The position numbers were made by a program, and so were the translations under genes. The notes under the pieces are model-generated. The model searched no databases. It worked only from the letters and a program-made list of their open reading frames with translations, and was not told the origin of the DNA. This document shows positions 7,764 through 16,570 of a DNA stretch of 21,320 bases, piece by piece. This DNA comes from a virus: positions 1-21,320 of IMG/VR virus record IMGVR_UViG_3300010396_000109. The stretch is one strand, 5' to 3'. The stretch's first letter is position 1; every line of letters begins with the position of its first letter.

Positions 7764-8932
7764 TGCACCTGTTGAAAATTCTGGGGTAGTTCGAGCGCAG
7801 CAAACGTGAGCCACGGGTAAGGCCGGACGGTTATAAACACCGGGGCAGCGCCGTCCGCTAATTTCTGACCGAAGCCGTCGAGTAGTCCGTCGCGCGGCTG
7901 GCCATCATCCGTGATGAACTTTTGCTTTGTCCACGGGAGGGAGGTTGACACCCGGAATCGGTAGTAGCTTCCCTTGTCGAGTAACTGAATGTCCCACGTC
8001 TTCCGCGCGTGGAATAAGTACGTAGCACGCAAGTAAGGGAAGATCGAGCCGTCCGGAAGCTGCTTGTTCTGCCTTTGACATGTGATGCTCTGACACTTCA
8101 CCTGTCCGGGGCCGAACCCGAAAAAGACATCCGCGTTGACGGAGTCTTGGAAAAGCAACGCCGTCTCCGGGATCGGCGACAAGATCGATTCGTTCCTCGT
8201 CATTGTGATGAGGAGCGTTGATCTATCCATCATAGGGGGCGGAACGAAGATTTCACCCGCGCTAGACGCGAGCGGTTTAAACGCAACATCAATGATCGTC
8301 GCGGTCCCCGTGGAACCCGTCCAGGCCGTTCCGAGGGTGATATTCACCCCGTCCGTGATCGCCGATACCGTCGTGTTGAGGACTGTCTTCCCCGCGTATA
8401 TGGTCACGGGATCGCCAACGGTGAAGAGGGCCGTCGCCGTAGTAGCAACGAGGGAGGAGCCGTGAGACACGCTCGCGGAGATGCCGGAGCCTTGAACCCC
8501 GTAGATCGGCACCTTCTCCGTTTGCCAGTGGGTTTCTAACTCCGGGATGGCCGCGAGCGGGTTGTCAAATTGCTCATCCTTTTCCTCTCCCGTACCTCCG
8601 CCATCGCTGTCCTTAGAGTCGTGTCCGCCCTCCTCCTTCGCGCCGTCCTTTTGCTCCGGGGTTGTGTAGACGCACGTAACTTCCCACTCCAACGCACCAG
8701 GTGCCATCCGTTGCGGGTCGATGGATCGACAGCGACAGTACGGGTGGAACTCCCCGCCGAACTGATAGGGGGTGAAGAGTCTCGGGAGGCCGATAGCGTT
8801 CGCTACCGTCATCGGCCCGTCGAGAACGCTGGTAGTTAACACACGGAACTTCCGCGTGATAGTGTGCTTGCCGCATTCAAAGCTCGCCACCGGACTACCC
8901 GGACGCTCTTGCGCGATGCCAATAATCCCCAC
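7760..8932 (-). CDS. Tail protein of unknown function, 390 aa
   Basis: GTG 8932 overlaps the tape-measure TAG by one base (TAGTG). Three parts are visible. Residues 1-95 include a Cys pair in HPYCRCRSIDP, followed by LEWEVTCVYTT, a beta region. Residues about 96-122 are a hydrophilic acidic linker (KEEGGHDSKDSDGGGTGEEK). Residues about 125-390 are beta-rich with an Ala/Thr/Gly-rich insertion (about 155-210) that reads like an inserted Ig-like or carbohydrate-binding module (VTIYAGKTVLNTTVSAITDG). In siphoviruses the gene after the tape measure is normally the distal tail protein, so a distal-tail or hub-like role is likely by position. Sequence similarity to that family is not apparent to me. 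Confidence 0.7.
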   Translation of the reverse strand: MGIIGIAQERPGSPVASFECGKHTITRKFRVLTTSVLDGPMTVANAIGLPRLFTPYQFGGEFHPYCRCRSIDPQRMAPGALEWEVTCVYTTPEQKDGAKEEGGHDSKDSDGGGTGEEKDEQFDNPLAAIPELETHWQTEKVPIYGVQGSGISASVSHGSSLVATTATALFTVGDPVTIYAGKTVLNTTVSAITDGVNITLGTAWTGSTGTATIIDVAFKPLASSAGEIFVPPPMMDRSTLLITMTRNESILSPIPETALLFQDSVNADVFFGFGPGQVKCQSITCQRQNKQLPDGSIFPYLRATYLFHARKTWDIQLLDKGSYYRFRVSTSLPWTKQKFITDDGQPRDGLLDGFGQKLADGAAPVFITVRPYPWLTFAALELPQNFQQVQ

Positions 8933-10518
8933 TACATCACCGCTTTCTTGACGCCGGCCTTACCCGCCTTCTTCGCCTTCACCGCGTTCTCGATTGCGAT
9001 TAACGCTTTCAACTGGTCGTTAGCGACCTTGAACATCTTGTCGCCGTTCTGCTTGGCTATGATGGAGAATGCCTCCGAAGAACCCCGCTCCACCGCCGCA
9101 TTCTCCCGGTTCCCCTGGACTACTCCCGTCGAACCCGCCGCGTTGACGCCCATTGCCTTTTTCTTGTCATCCAGGAACTTCTTTTTCCTACTATCAAGCT
9201 CCTTTTGCTCCCGATCTACGCTCTCCCGTATGGAGGTCTCGATTGTCCCGGAGGATCGTTTCATGGAGGCTTTCACGTCTCGCACGGCCTTGTCCCAAGC
9301 CTTGTCGAACCCCCCAGAGAATCCCGTAGTGATTCCTTCGTACAACATGTCGCCGAAGGATCGGAAGAGTTGAGGCAAGACATCGGTGAAGACATGGAGA
9401 ACAGCGTTCGCAAATTCCGTTATCCAGAGTTGAGCCTTCCGGAAGTACAGATGGACGTAGTCCGAGAAGTTCTTGAACGCGAACTCGACCCCGTGAGCAA
9501 AATCGATTATGTCCTCTCGGTACTTGTTCACCCACTTCAACGCGTCCGTGATCCCACCCGCGATCAACTTCACGAACGGAGCAATCGTGATCGCGGCGGT
9601 TCTCCCCAACCCCGTAAACGCGGCCTTCATATCGGTTATGGAGGCTTTCGCCTGCTCAACCTGCTCCGCGTTCGCACGGGACATGCCGAGACCTAAATCC
9701 CCGGCATCCCGCATTGCGGCCTTCAACCCATCGATCCCGCCCTTCGTTTGTCTCAGCATCATCTCCCCGGACTCTCCGAGGATAGCAACGGCCCGGTTCG
9801 CTCTGTCCGCTGGATCGGGGATGCGGTTCAGAGCTTCCGCGACGGACACGAACGCCTCGTCTACCCCCTGATCCTTCAACGCGGCGATGTCAACCCCGAG
9901 GTCTGCAAGCGCCCCGCGCATCACCACGCCACCGGCACCCGCTCGCGCGATACTACCTCTCAGCTTCTCCAAAGACCCCGCCACACCCTCGAAGCTGACG
10001 CCGGCCTTCTCCCCCGCGTGAGCCATCCCCGCCATTGCTTCCGTGCCGATCCCTAGCTTGTCCGCCGTCTTCGCAAGTGCGTCGATACCCTCCGTGGACG
10101 CCAGCCCGGAACCAACCCACGCCGCGCCAGCGCCGACAGTAGCAAGACCGAGGGCCGCGACAGCTGCGACAACGAGGCTTAATCCCGCCGTAGCAATCGT
10201 GGTTGCCGCGCCGAACGCACCCATCGCGGTTGTCGCCGAGAGGATGCCCGTCACGGAGGAGGAGAACGCCTTCCCTATCGCTCCGCCTAGGAATGCGGCC
10301 GGTTTCAACACGGTCGTTATCACCCCCACGCCCGGCATCGCCGCGAACGCGGCTTTCATCTTCTCGCCGATCTCCTTGAACTTCGAGGAAATCCCTTCCC
10401 CGTGCTTGTCCACATCGGCCCGGAGCTTCACCACCTTCCCGGTGGTCTTGTCCGCCGCCCCATCGATAGAGGCGGTGTTCCCACGAAGGTTGATGTCAAA
10501 ATTCGCAACAATTGACAT
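8932..10518 (-). CDS. Tail tape measure protein
   Basis: The protein follows the chaperone gene by only 3 bases and is Ala/Gly/Lys-rich and helical, with a hydrophobic segment at about 70-140 (repeated AAVAALGLATVGAGAAW-type stretches), as in tape measure proteins that enter the host membrane. Residues about 140-300 (LAKTADKLGIGTEAM, GEKAGVSFEGV, RANRAVAILGESGEMML) match the typical tape-measure core. The last 100 residues are a charged coil with a basic C-terminus. The tape measure sets tail length at roughly 0.15 nm per residue, so 528 residues imply a rather short tail, near 80 nm (rule of thumb from the family, not measured). No lysozyme or peptidase domain is visible. Confidence 0.9.
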   Translation of the reverse strand: MSIVANFDINLRGNTASIDGAADKTTGKVVKLRADVDKHGEGISSKFKEIGEKMKAAFAAMPGVGVITTVLKPAAFLGGAIGKAFSSSVTGILSATTAMGAFGAATTIATAGLSLVVAAVAALGLATVGAGAAWVGSGLASTEGIDALAKTADKLGIGTEAMAGMAHAGEKAGVSFEGVAGSLEKLRGSIARAGAGGVVMRGALADLGVDIAALKDQGVDEAFVSVAEALNRIPDPADRANRAVAILGESGEMMLRQTKGGIDGLKAAMRDAGDLGLGMSRANAEQVEQAKASITDMKAAFTGLGRTAAITIAPFVKLIAGGITDALKWVNKYREDIIDFAHGVEFAFKNFSDYVHLYFRKAQLWITEFANAVLHVFTDVLPQLFRSFGDMLYEGITTGFSGGFDKAWDKAVRDVKASMKRSSGTIETSIRESVDREQKELDSRKKKFLDDKKKAMGVNAAGSTGVVQGNRENAAVERGSSEAFSIIAKQNGDKMFKVANDQLKALIAIENAVKAKKAGKAGVKKAVM

Positions 10519-10521
10519 AGC

Positions 10522-11183
10522 TTATGTCCTCGTTGGGATCGATGCGAGCGTGTGATGGAGTGACGCGAGGAAGTCCTCGTCGGACTGCTCTTCCGGTGTC
10601 CGATACGGCATGAAGTCTTCCGCCGTCTTGAATGCTCCACCAGATCGATTCACGTTGTAAAACATGGACATCAACATCCCCCATTGGATGTCTTCACGGT
10701 CGATCCCGAGGCCGTGTTCCGCGTCGAACTGTTGCCAGTCGAGCCATTGCTTTGCGGTGAGAAGGGGGAAGAGGTAATCAGGATGGGGGAGGCCGAGACG
10801 CAAGCAAAGATGGAAGGCTTGCGTCTCGGCCGGACTTAGTTTTTTGGTTCTTGCTTCGTTTCGATCCCGGATGCCGTCAACACCGCGACCATCAACGCTT
10901 CCATCGCGGGGAGCGAGATATCGAGGCACGCTTCGACATCCTCCACGTTGGCGAACAACCTCGTCCCGTTGTCATCCGTGAGAGTACGCGAGAATACGTC
11001 ATGCACGAAAGCAAGATTACTTGTGGACTCTTGCGAACCGTACTTCGTTTGAATCTCGACCAGTTCCTTCGAGGTCATCTCCTGGATGATCACATACGCA
11101 TCCTCCCCATACTCCGGGAGCGGGTATTTCACCCGCTTGAGCCGGAGGGGGGAGGCAAACGATTCTCGACTAACACACCCCAT
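10522..11183 (-). CDS. Tail assembly chaperone GT, -1 frameshift product
   Basis: This is the long form made when ribosomes slip back one base at A AAA AAC (10845-10839). It corresponds to complement(join(10522..10839,10839..11183)), about 220 residues. The first 115 codons are shared with the short form; after the slip, reading continues LSPAETQAFHLCLRLG to TAA 10522. The second frame has no convincing start of its own near the junction, and lies directly before the tape measure gene, as T does in lambda-like phages. The T part has WLDWQQFDAEHGLG and DEDFLASLHHTLAS, the small helical composition known for these proteins. G and GT keep the tape measure soluble and recruit tube subunits in a family-typical ratio; they are not in the virion. 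A 15-bp stem downstream supports the frameshift. Confidence 0.85.
10791..10831 (-). promoter_or_regulatory. Stimulatory stem-loop of the frameshift site
   Basis: A perfect 15-bp inverted repeat: bases 10817-10831 pair with 10791-10805 around an 11-base loop (10806-10816). On the mRNA the stem starts 7 nt after the slippery heptamer, the optimal spacing for a -1 frameshift stimulator. It lies wholly within the T reading frame. Confidence 0.88.
10836..11183 (-). CDS. Tail assembly chaperone G (short form)
   Basis: ATG 11183 follows AAGGGGGG on the coding strand, 10 bases after the tube gene stop. The 115-residue protein contains a positive N-terminal half (LRLKRVKYPLPEYGEDAYVIIQEMTSKELVEI) and helical segments up to MEALMVAVLTASG, the typical layout of siphovirus G-like tail assembly chaperones (compare Phage_TAC-type families). 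It ends ETKQEPKN just before TAA, and the last codons form the slippery heptamer. It is located between the tube and tape-measure genes, the diagnostic position. Most ribosomes should stop here; a minority give GT. Confidence 0.85.
   Translation of the reverse strand: MGCVSRESFASPLRLKRVKYPLPEYGEDAYVIIQEMTSKELVEIQTKYGSQESTSNLAFVHDVFSRTLTDDNGTRLFANVEDVEACLDISLPAMEALMVAVLTASGIETKQEPKN
10839..10845 (-). promoter_or_regulatory. -1 frameshift slippery heptamer A AAA AAC
   Basis: In the G frame the codons read CCA AAA AAC TAA, giving the canonical X XXY YYZ heptamer directly before the stop. A one-base slip backwards keeps AAA pairing in both sites and leads straight into the open T frame at CTA. 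Confidence 0.9.
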
Positions 11184-11192
11184 AAACCCCCC

Positions 11193-11621
11193 TTAGAACC
11201 CTGGATTGCCGGACACGGAAATTGTCACGTCGGCCGTAATCATCGCGCCCTTTTTCCGGCTCACCTTGAACCCGGAGACGAGACCGACGAAGGACTTCTT
11301 TTGCTGCACTTCCGCGCCGATGATTGGGTACTCGATCTCCCATCCCGCGATTACGGATGACGCAAGCAGGCCGGTGAGGACTACGGTAGTAGCCGTATCG
11401 AGCGGATCGTATGCGATGGTGAAAGTCACTTCACCCGGATCAATCTGCGCGCCTCCCTTCGTGGTGAACTTATCACCGAGAAGCGAACTATCGAAGACGG
11501 TCGTCTTCGCGTCCGCGCCCTCAATGTGGTCCACGATGGAACCTAGAACCACATACGTAACGCCGCCGAGAGGATCGCAGGAGAGCGTAACGCCTAGGCC
11601 GACACGCTTTGTCAGAGACAT
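11193..11621 (-). CDS. Major tail tube protein
   Basis: ATG 11621 follows AAGGAG at good spacing. The 142-residue protein is beta-rich, Gly/Thr/Val-dominated and begins SLTKRVGLGVTLSCDP. The middle contains GEVTFTIAYDPLDTATTVVLTGLL, and the end VSGFKVSRKKGAMITADVTISVSG; this 'GxVxGFKxSxKKGxxItAdVtIxvSG' ending is a hallmark of lambda gpV/HK97 tail tube-like proteins. It polymerises into hexameric rings around the tape measure, forming the DNA channel. Order tail completion - tube - G/GT - tape measure confirms the call. It should be among the most abundant virion proteins after the capsid. No C-terminal Ig-like domain is attached. Confidence 0.85.
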   Translation of the reverse strand: MSLTKRVGLGVTLSCDPLGGVTYVVLGSIVDHIEGADAKTTVFDSSLLGDKFTTKGGAQIDPGEVTFTIAYDPLDTATTVVLTGLLASSVIAGWEIEYPIIGAEVQQKKSFVGLVSGFKVSRKKGAMITADVTISVSGNPGF

Positions 11622-12394: not shown

Positions 12395-12750
12395 ACAATC
12401 CCCGTCTTTTGCTCCGTGCAAATCAGCGTCAGCCAGATGTTCCGTTCCTCGTGGTTCCAAATGCCGCCGATGTTGAAAGTCCGGCCGTTCCACTGAACCC
12501 GGCATTTTTCATCGATCCCCGCAAGATACCTCATCGTTATCATGTGGGAGGCCGTCGCAACCATCTGCCGAGCAACCTCCGCTTTCTTCCCCACGGAGGT
12601 AGCCGATTCGATGCTGGCATTCGGGGTTGCGAGCGTGGTCCATGAGTACACGGGCTGACCACGATCCCCCGTAGAGGTCACGGTCTTGCTCTGCACGGTA
12701 ATCTTGTGCCGGAGACTCCCCGCACGAACGAAGATCGGTGTTACGGGCAT
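12391..12750 (-). CDS. Head closure protein (Phage_H_T_join family)
   Basis: ATG 12750 overlaps the connector stop by one base (TGATG). The 119-residue protein opens RAGSLRHKITVQSKTVTSTGDRGQPVYSWTTLAT, the family's characteristic 'aG.LrhrItiq......d..G....W....' start, and includes KKAEVARQMVATASHMITMRY and a C-terminal WNGRTFNIGGIWNHEERNIWLTLICTE. These match SPP1 gp16-like head closure or 'head-tail joining' proteins that seal the connector after packaging. It is flanked by the connector and gp10-like genes, the standard siphovirus order. Confidence 0.88.
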   Translation of the reverse strand: MPVTPIFVRAGSLRHKITVQSKTVTSTGDRGQPVYSWTTLATPNASIESATSVGKKAEVARQMVATASHMITMRYLAGIDEKCRVQWNGRTFNIGGIWNHEERNIWLTLICTEQKTGIV

Positions 12751-15048: not shown

Positions 15049-15078
15049 GGTAGGAGATAGCTGGGGCTATCTCCTACC
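15049..15078 (-). terminator. Strong intercistronic hairpin after the capsid gene
   Basis: A perfect 13-bp inverted repeat (15049-15061 with 15066-15078) closes a 4-base loop, beginning 4 bases after the capsid stop. No U-tract follows (TCTTATGG), so full Rho-independent termination is unlikely. It may act as a partial terminator or as a 3'-end stabiliser that raises capsid mRNA over downstream genes. Confidence 0.75.
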
Positions 15079-15082
15079 GTGA

Positions 15083-16570
15083 TTAGTTGCACTTGATCCG
15101 CGTGAAGGCCTCGGCGAGAACCGGCATACCATCCAACTCCATCCGAGCGATGAAGCCGGTTTGGTTCGCGGCCGCGTACAGTTCGACGAGCCGTTGGATT
15201 TGCATCTCCAGCGAGTCCACGATCCAGTAGAAGGACAAATCCCCGAACAAGCCGATGTACAACCCGGACGAAGCAACGTTGGGGTTGTACTCGGACATGT
15301 TCACCGGACGATCTAAGATCGTGTCCGCTTCCCCGCCGAGACCGCCCGGAACCCAGAGGTAATTGCCGTTACCGTCCTTCAACTGGCGGATCAATTGCAG
15401 GATATTCCGATGGAACAGCCACTCCGCCCGGTTCCAGTACTGGACCTTCTGGTTGTACTTCGCGGCGATCAAAGCATCGACCGTGATGCCGGTAGGATTG
15501 CCGGACAGCACATCTCGGCTTGTGTCGATGCCACGGTTACTCGCTGTGAAGAGACCGAGGGGCTGATTGCTCCCCGTCCCCGACATGAACGCCTTCTCTT
15601 CGCTCACCCCGAACTTGTAGCCGAGGCGGTCTCGGACCAGCCCTTCAGGACCACCGCCAGCAACAGAGCCGTCAGCGGAGAAGCCGCCCGTGACAGACGC
15701 CATGCGGAGCAAGCGATTGCTGACCTTCAACCGCTTCGCCAGCGGGTGAGGCGTCAACTCCCGCTTACCAAACGACATCGCGTTGTCTTCGTTGCCGGTG
15801 TCCAGTTCACTGGTCCAGTCGGCATCGCTGATGTCGTTGTCGAGGGACGGAGCGCCGAGAGACTGTGCGGCCTTGACGACGTACTTCGTGGCCTTCTGAC
15901 GAATGAAAAGGTAGTTGTTCACGAACTTGATGAGCTTCGCAACAAATTCTTGCGGAGCCACCAGGTACCCGCCGACGATGTCGCTGTCCGCCTGGATCGC
16001 ACGTTGAGCGAGCCGCGAGCCTAGTACCTTGTCACCATCGACCAGGTACTGATTAAACACCTGCCGGTATTCCGGGGTGGATCGGCGTTGACGAGTACGG
16101 TACTCTTGCTCCGTCTCGCCGGCCGCACGTTTGTTCGGGGGGAGGCCCGGTTGCGTCCGGCGCTTGACCGTCACTTTGTCGAGACGGTATCGCTTGCCCT
16201 TGAGGATGATGTACTTCCGCTTGCCAGACCGCTCGTCATCGTCATCGTCATCCTCATCGTCTTCATCGTCGCGATCTTCGTCCTCGTCTTCGTCTTCGTC
16301 TTCATCGTCGCGGTCCTCATCCTCCGTGTCCTCATCGTCGCGGTCCTCGTCGTCATCCTCCGCGTCGGCCATGCGCTCCAACGCACCGACCCGTTCGTGA
16401 AGCTCATCGACCTTCTTCATGGTCTCTTCCCAAGACCCCTTCTCGTCGGCTCGCATCGCGCGGCTCTCCTTCTCCGCGCCGTCTTGGATCTTCCGCGCCT
16501 CCGCGATGAGCTTCAGCCGCTCCGCGCGGAGGTCTTTAATCTGCTTCGCCTGATTCGCCGTTTTCGGCAT
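15083..16570 (-). CDS. Major capsid protein, HK97 fold, with delta domain
   Basis: I chose ATG 16570 (GAGG at 5 bases); the open frame to 16594 would overlap the protease. The 495-residue precursor has an N-terminal coiled scaffold/delta region (about 1-70, KQIKDLRAERLKLIAEARKI, DELHERVGALERM). A 44-residue acidic tract follows (71-114) and then a basic segment (KRKYIILKGKRYRLDKVTVKRR). The HK97-fold shell domain starts near EYRQVFNQYLVDG (about 165). It contains GGYLVAPQEFVAKLI (N-arm/E-loop region), SFGKRELTPHPLAKRLKVSNRLL, DRLGYKFGVSEEKAFMSGTGSNQPLGLF (P-domain spine), and ends near TGFIARMELDGMPVLAEAFTRIKC. It forms the icosahedral shell; the delta region is normally removed by the neighbouring protease. 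The acidic insertion is unusual. Confidence 0.95.
   Translation of the reverse strand: MPKTANQAKQIKDLRAERLKLIAEARKIQDGAEKESRAMRADEKGSWEETMKKVDELHERVGALERMADAEDDDEDRDDEDTEDEDRDDEDEDEDEDEDRDDEDDEDDDDDDERSGKRKYIILKGKRYRLDKVTVKRRTQPGLPPNKRAAGETEQEYRTRQRRSTPEYRQVFNQYLVDGDKVLGSRLAQRAIQADSDIVGGYLVAPQEFVAKLIKFVNNYLFIRQKATKYVVKAAQSLGAPSLDNDISDADWTSELDTGNEDNAMSFGKRELTPHPLAKRLKVSNRLLRMASVTGGFSADGSVAGGGPEGLVRDRLGYKFGVSEEKAFMSGTGSNQPLGLFTASNRGIDTSRDVLSGNPTGITVDALIAAKYNQKVQYWNRAEWLFHRNILQLIRQLKDGNGNYLWVPGGLGGEADTILDRPVNMSEYNPNVASSGLYIGLFGDLSFYWIVDSLEMQIQRLVELYAAANQTGFIARMELDGMPVLAEAFTRIKCN
16229..16360 (-). repeat. Low-complexity Asp/Glu-coding tract
   Basis: The + strand is a run of TCATCG, TCCTC and TCTTCG units; a unit TCATCGTCGCGGTCCTC occurs twice (near 16301 and 16331) and once in altered form. 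It encodes 44 residues, 39 acidic, with Arg at regular spacing. Such a repeat can expand or contract by slippage. Confidence 0.85.

Follow-up and report, generated by a model that had tools for sequence, protein, structure and literature searches.

A predicted lambda-type G/GT frameshift signal with a compact hairpin in an uncultured phage

Tail genes around the G/T overlap

The window, a virus record of 21,320 bases, carried its G/T signal on the minus strand, among tail genes arranged in the order tail tube, G, T and tape measure. Upstream of G lay the gene for the tail tube (major tail) protein (11193..11621, minus strand; PF16461, E 5.9e-7; phrog_158, E 1.1e-7), and downstream of T that for the tape measure protein (8932..10518, minus strand; phrog_9483, tail length tape measure, E 4.2e-36). 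The G-like tail assembly chaperone (10836..11183, minus strand) comprised 115 aa in the zero frame with the C-terminal residues ...EPKN*, matched the PHROG profile phrog_344 (tail assembly chaperone, E 4.5e-10) and could be aligned with G of 21 phages. A Shine-Dalgarno-like sequence upstream of G had a computed pairing of -11.6 kcal/mol. The T domain (10522..10839, minus strand), forming the C-terminal part of the predicted GT, lay in the -1 frame and overlapped the end of G, with a G/T overlap of 139 nt. Translation of this frame (KK|LSPAETQ...) remained open for 105 codons after KK and stopped at 10524-10522. Its product matched Pfam PF06223 (Phage_tail_T, Minor tail protein T; E 2.3e-10) at 41.2 bits against a gathering cutoff of 25.9, and also phrog_337 (tail protein, E 1.8e-7). 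Joined GT proteins were annotated in HK97, KS9, Bcep176, SASD1, Dubu and Jflix2. The preliminary description had called the open 105-codon frame a T-like extension and the whole a tail chaperone GT; the profile matches to G and T, the gene order and the joined annotations in homologues from cultured phages all bore this out.

Elsewhere in the window, a large serine recombinase (1090-2649; PF00239, PF07508, PF13408) was encoded on the strand opposite to the structural genes, suggesting that the phage is probably temperate. Within this gene, a 21-nt inverted repeat at 1529-1571 was 90% complementary with arms 1 nt apart, and windows over it had the lowest minus-strand folding energy found (-45.5 kcal/mol per 50 nt).

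Slippery heptamer and downstream hairpin

The 3' end of G read GAA CCA AAA AAC TAA, so that the last two sense codons fell in an in-frame slippery heptamer, A_AAA_AAC (10839..10845, minus strand), directly followed by the G stop codon TAA (10836..10838, minus strand). The sequence AAAAAAC occurred once in the 21,320 bases when both strands were counted, and A_AAA_AAC was the sole canonical heptamer in the 139-nt overlap. Across 6,334 codons there were 12 in-frame heptamers of the form X_XXY_YYZ, three of them with A or T as Y. A search upstream of the heptamer for a Shine-Dalgarno-like stimulator found only weak pairing (-4.1 kcal/mol). Downstream, a 7-nt spacer that includes the stop codon (10832..10838, minus strand) separated the heptamer from a predicted stimulatory hairpin (10791..10831, minus strand), which had a perfect 15-bp stem and the 11-nt loop CTTCCATCTTT, the 41 nt folding alone at -30 kcal/mol. 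The arms, 10831-10817 and 10805-10791, formed 15 of 15 Watson-Crick pairs around a loop at 10816-10806. The preliminary description was thus accurate in its reading of CCA AAA AAC TAA at the end of G (heptamer at 10845-10839 of the minus strand) and of a perfect 15-bp stem with an 11-base loop 7 nt further on. Known stimulatory structures usually, but not obligatorily, start 5-8 nt downstream of the slippery site (PMC4066793), a range that includes the 7 nt found here.

No other perfect hairpin stem in the window was as long. Perfect 15-bp stems with loops of 3-20 nt would be expected by chance 0.0006 times per window, and about 3e-7 times at this particular spot. The fold of 10838-10761 had a z of -8.0 against dinucleotide shuffles. 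As a recoding control, the stretch of T that the stem occupies was given synonymous codons at random, according to phage codon usage, in 5000 draws, which gave a mean energy of -14.3 kcal/mol compared with -31.4 for the native sequence. Only 2 of the 5000 recodings reached the native energy and none had a 15-bp stem, indicating that the nucleotide sequence carries structure that is not dictated by the T protein. Pairing of the 11-nt loop with downstream sequence, as in a pseudoknot, was no better than in shuffled sequence.

Related G/T loci

No close relatives of G and T were found among viral_contigs, searched with the G, T, tail tube and tape measure proteins, or among genome_contigs, searched with the GT fusion. 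Three phages gave access to distant relatives: Jflix2 and Madraxi, both of Rhodococcus, with 25-27% in G, and KS9 of Burkholderia, with 33% in T. These three, together with phages whose T is related to theirs, made up a panel of 21 phages whose G and T were aligned with those of the window; tape-measure relatives (L007, L011-L015), in which G and T genes could not be recognised by annotation, were left out of this comparison. T lay in the -1 frame relative to G in all 21 panel phages, and an X_XXY_YYZ heptamer fell within the G/T overlap in 14 of them. As in the window, the heptamer stood immediately 5' of the G stop in SASD1, Dubu, SP-016, 716R1 and Pm34, and some homologues had G_GGA_AAC or G_GGA_AAG as the heptamer. 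In KS9-like loci, a distant family, a slippery run of A6-A7 was kept in each of the 30 examined.

Hairpins were compared by a rule adapted from PMC4066793, with onset 4-10 nt after the motif, a G-C closing pair and a stability of at least 7.6 kcal/mol. A qualifying hairpin was present at 12 of 15 sites, namely the window and 11 of the 14 others with a heptamer. The earlier comment on the scarcity of clear stimulators at phage sites was thus only partly right: most of these sites had a hairpin, though that of the window was the most compact of those compared, with the highest energy per nucleotide (-0.73 kcal/mol per nt). In total hairpin energy SP-016 and 716R1 were similar to the window and Yara was stronger. 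Set against mean energies per nucleotide of 0.317 for the clusters of PMC4066793 and 0.452 for its IS3-family hairpins, both obtained with an earlier release of the energy software, the window stem is at the compact end of the known range. An association of AAC-type heptamers with stronger stems was unsupported across the panel, the G_GGA_AAC sites of SASD1, Dubu and PARCL1pr having z values of -0.4 to 1.1. The hairpins of KS9 and Jflix2 covered other parts of T than the window stem, and so are not the same stem by descent. Taken over the 22 G/T pairs, this suggests that hairpins are common at G/T sites but have no conserved place within T, a pattern resembling repeated origin.

Two capsid relatives, L002 and L003, shared head genes with the window but were rejected as sources of homologous G and T, since the nucleotide similarity of L002 ended at 12747 and the L003 sequence itself ended within the capsid gene. 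Nucleotide similarity to L002 (about 78%) spanned the head genes and ended sharply just after the connector gene; beyond 12747 L002 had an unrelated tail module, marking this position as a point of exchange between head and tail modules. Just after the stop of the major capsid protein gene and before the next gene, the minus strand at 15049-15078 held a hairpin of 13 perfect base pairs around a 4-nt loop, without a T run. L002, whose capsid protein was 86% identical, had a matching hairpin at the corresponding position, in which a compensatory change preserved the pairing (GGTAGGAG/CTCCTACC versus GGTAGCAG/CTGCTACC), so this hairpin is probably a conserved RNA element, for example a processing or attenuation signal. 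The N-terminal part of the capsid protein contained a long acidic Asp/Glu tract (16150-16390), as did that of L002 with a different sequence.

Probable frameshifting and its alternatives

The sequence itself shows the parts of the signal and identifies G and T, and we consider it very probable that the site directs programmed -1 ribosomal frameshifting of the kind found at lambda G/GT. From these we infer slippage, its rate and the chaperone function, as follows. Most ribosomes translating G would terminate at TAA and release gpG, while a minority, held up by the hairpin with AAA in the P site and AAC in the A site, would re-pair one base back, on AAA AAA, and read on in the -1 frame, producing a G-T fusion of about 220 aa. 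If the system works as in lambda, both gpG and gpGT would bind the tape measure protein, tail tube subunits would be recruited by the T part, and both chaperones would be gone before tail completion. In E. coli, A_AAA_AAG is reported to be more slippery than A_AAA_AAC (PMC5009743), so the rate of frameshifting may be modest. The G and GT products of lambda occur at about 30:1, a ratio that matters for tail assembly (PMC5009743). That the compact stem offsets the less slippery AAC-ending heptamer, or tunes the G:GT ratio to a value far from that of lambda, strikes us as rather doubtful.

Alternatively, T might be a protein of its own, begun at an internal start or by ribosomes that terminate at the G stop and reinitiate there, with the hairpin acting on reinitiation. 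The T frame is open in its own right, and T-like genes are annotated separately in some records (e.g., Madraxi and REQ1). However, the first start in the T frame after the G stop, a TTG at 10803, lies within the stem and has no Shine-Dalgarno sequence, and the next, an ATG at 10677, would cut off the conserved LRLG and W..FD residues. As the only start before the conserved part is this unsupported TTG, and as separate translation would leave the in-frame heptamer at the end of G unexplained, we regard it as very unlikely. Still less probable is that the fusion arises by transcriptional slippage on the six consecutive A residues at the site. Six A are short for polymerase slippage, an in-frame X_XXY_YYZ heptamer with a long stem 7 nt on is what ribosomal slippage predicts, and several homologues have G_GGA_AAC or G_GGA_AAG instead. 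The least credible explanation is that the inverted repeat serves to terminate transcription, or as some other DNA element, and follows the heptamer by coincidence: a plus-strand T6 run does lie 8 bases beyond the stem, but this gap is too long, the tail genes are on the minus strand, a scan found no terminator-like site, and the stem lies within coding sequence at the spacing of a frameshift stimulator.

Several described systems come close to the one in the window. In lambda, whose G/GT heptamer we take to be G_GGA_AAG, G is likewise followed by T in the -1 frame, with the heptamer near the 3' end of G and the pair between the tail tube and tape measure genes; the window differs in its A_AAA_AAC and its very compact perfect stem. 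Xu, Hendrix and Duda (2004), as cited in PMC5009743 and PMC6003738, described this -1 frameshift of lambda together with its conserved equivalents. HK97 has a T homologue annotated as GT made by -1 frameshift but, unlike the window, lacks any perfect stem longer than 5 bp within 78 nt counted from its G stop. Moraxella phage Mcat21 also uses A_AAA_AAC, one codon before the G stop and a few bases ahead of a hairpin with an 8-bp stem, although this hairpin is shorter and weaker (-11.4 kcal/mol). The Rhodococcus phages Jflix2, Madraxi and REQ1 have the closest detectable G and a strong hairpin near the beginning of T, with as many as 13 perfect base pairs in Jflix2, but it lies over a different part of T, so is not the same stem by descent, and the slippery site is less clear. 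The haloarchaeal virus HCTV-2 has A_AAA_AAC as its G-T shift site (PMC5009743). Paenibacillus larvae phage Dragolir, compared by its description, has a possible AAAAAAC G-T frameshift site (PMC6003738), in a phage of 41-44% GC with a Gram-positive host. The site in the window is a very clear case of the phage G/GT frameshift signal, a kind known since lambda, and presents a clean textbook example in an uncultured phage, where automatic gene calling would report G, perhaps along with a T given the wrong start, and would miss GT.
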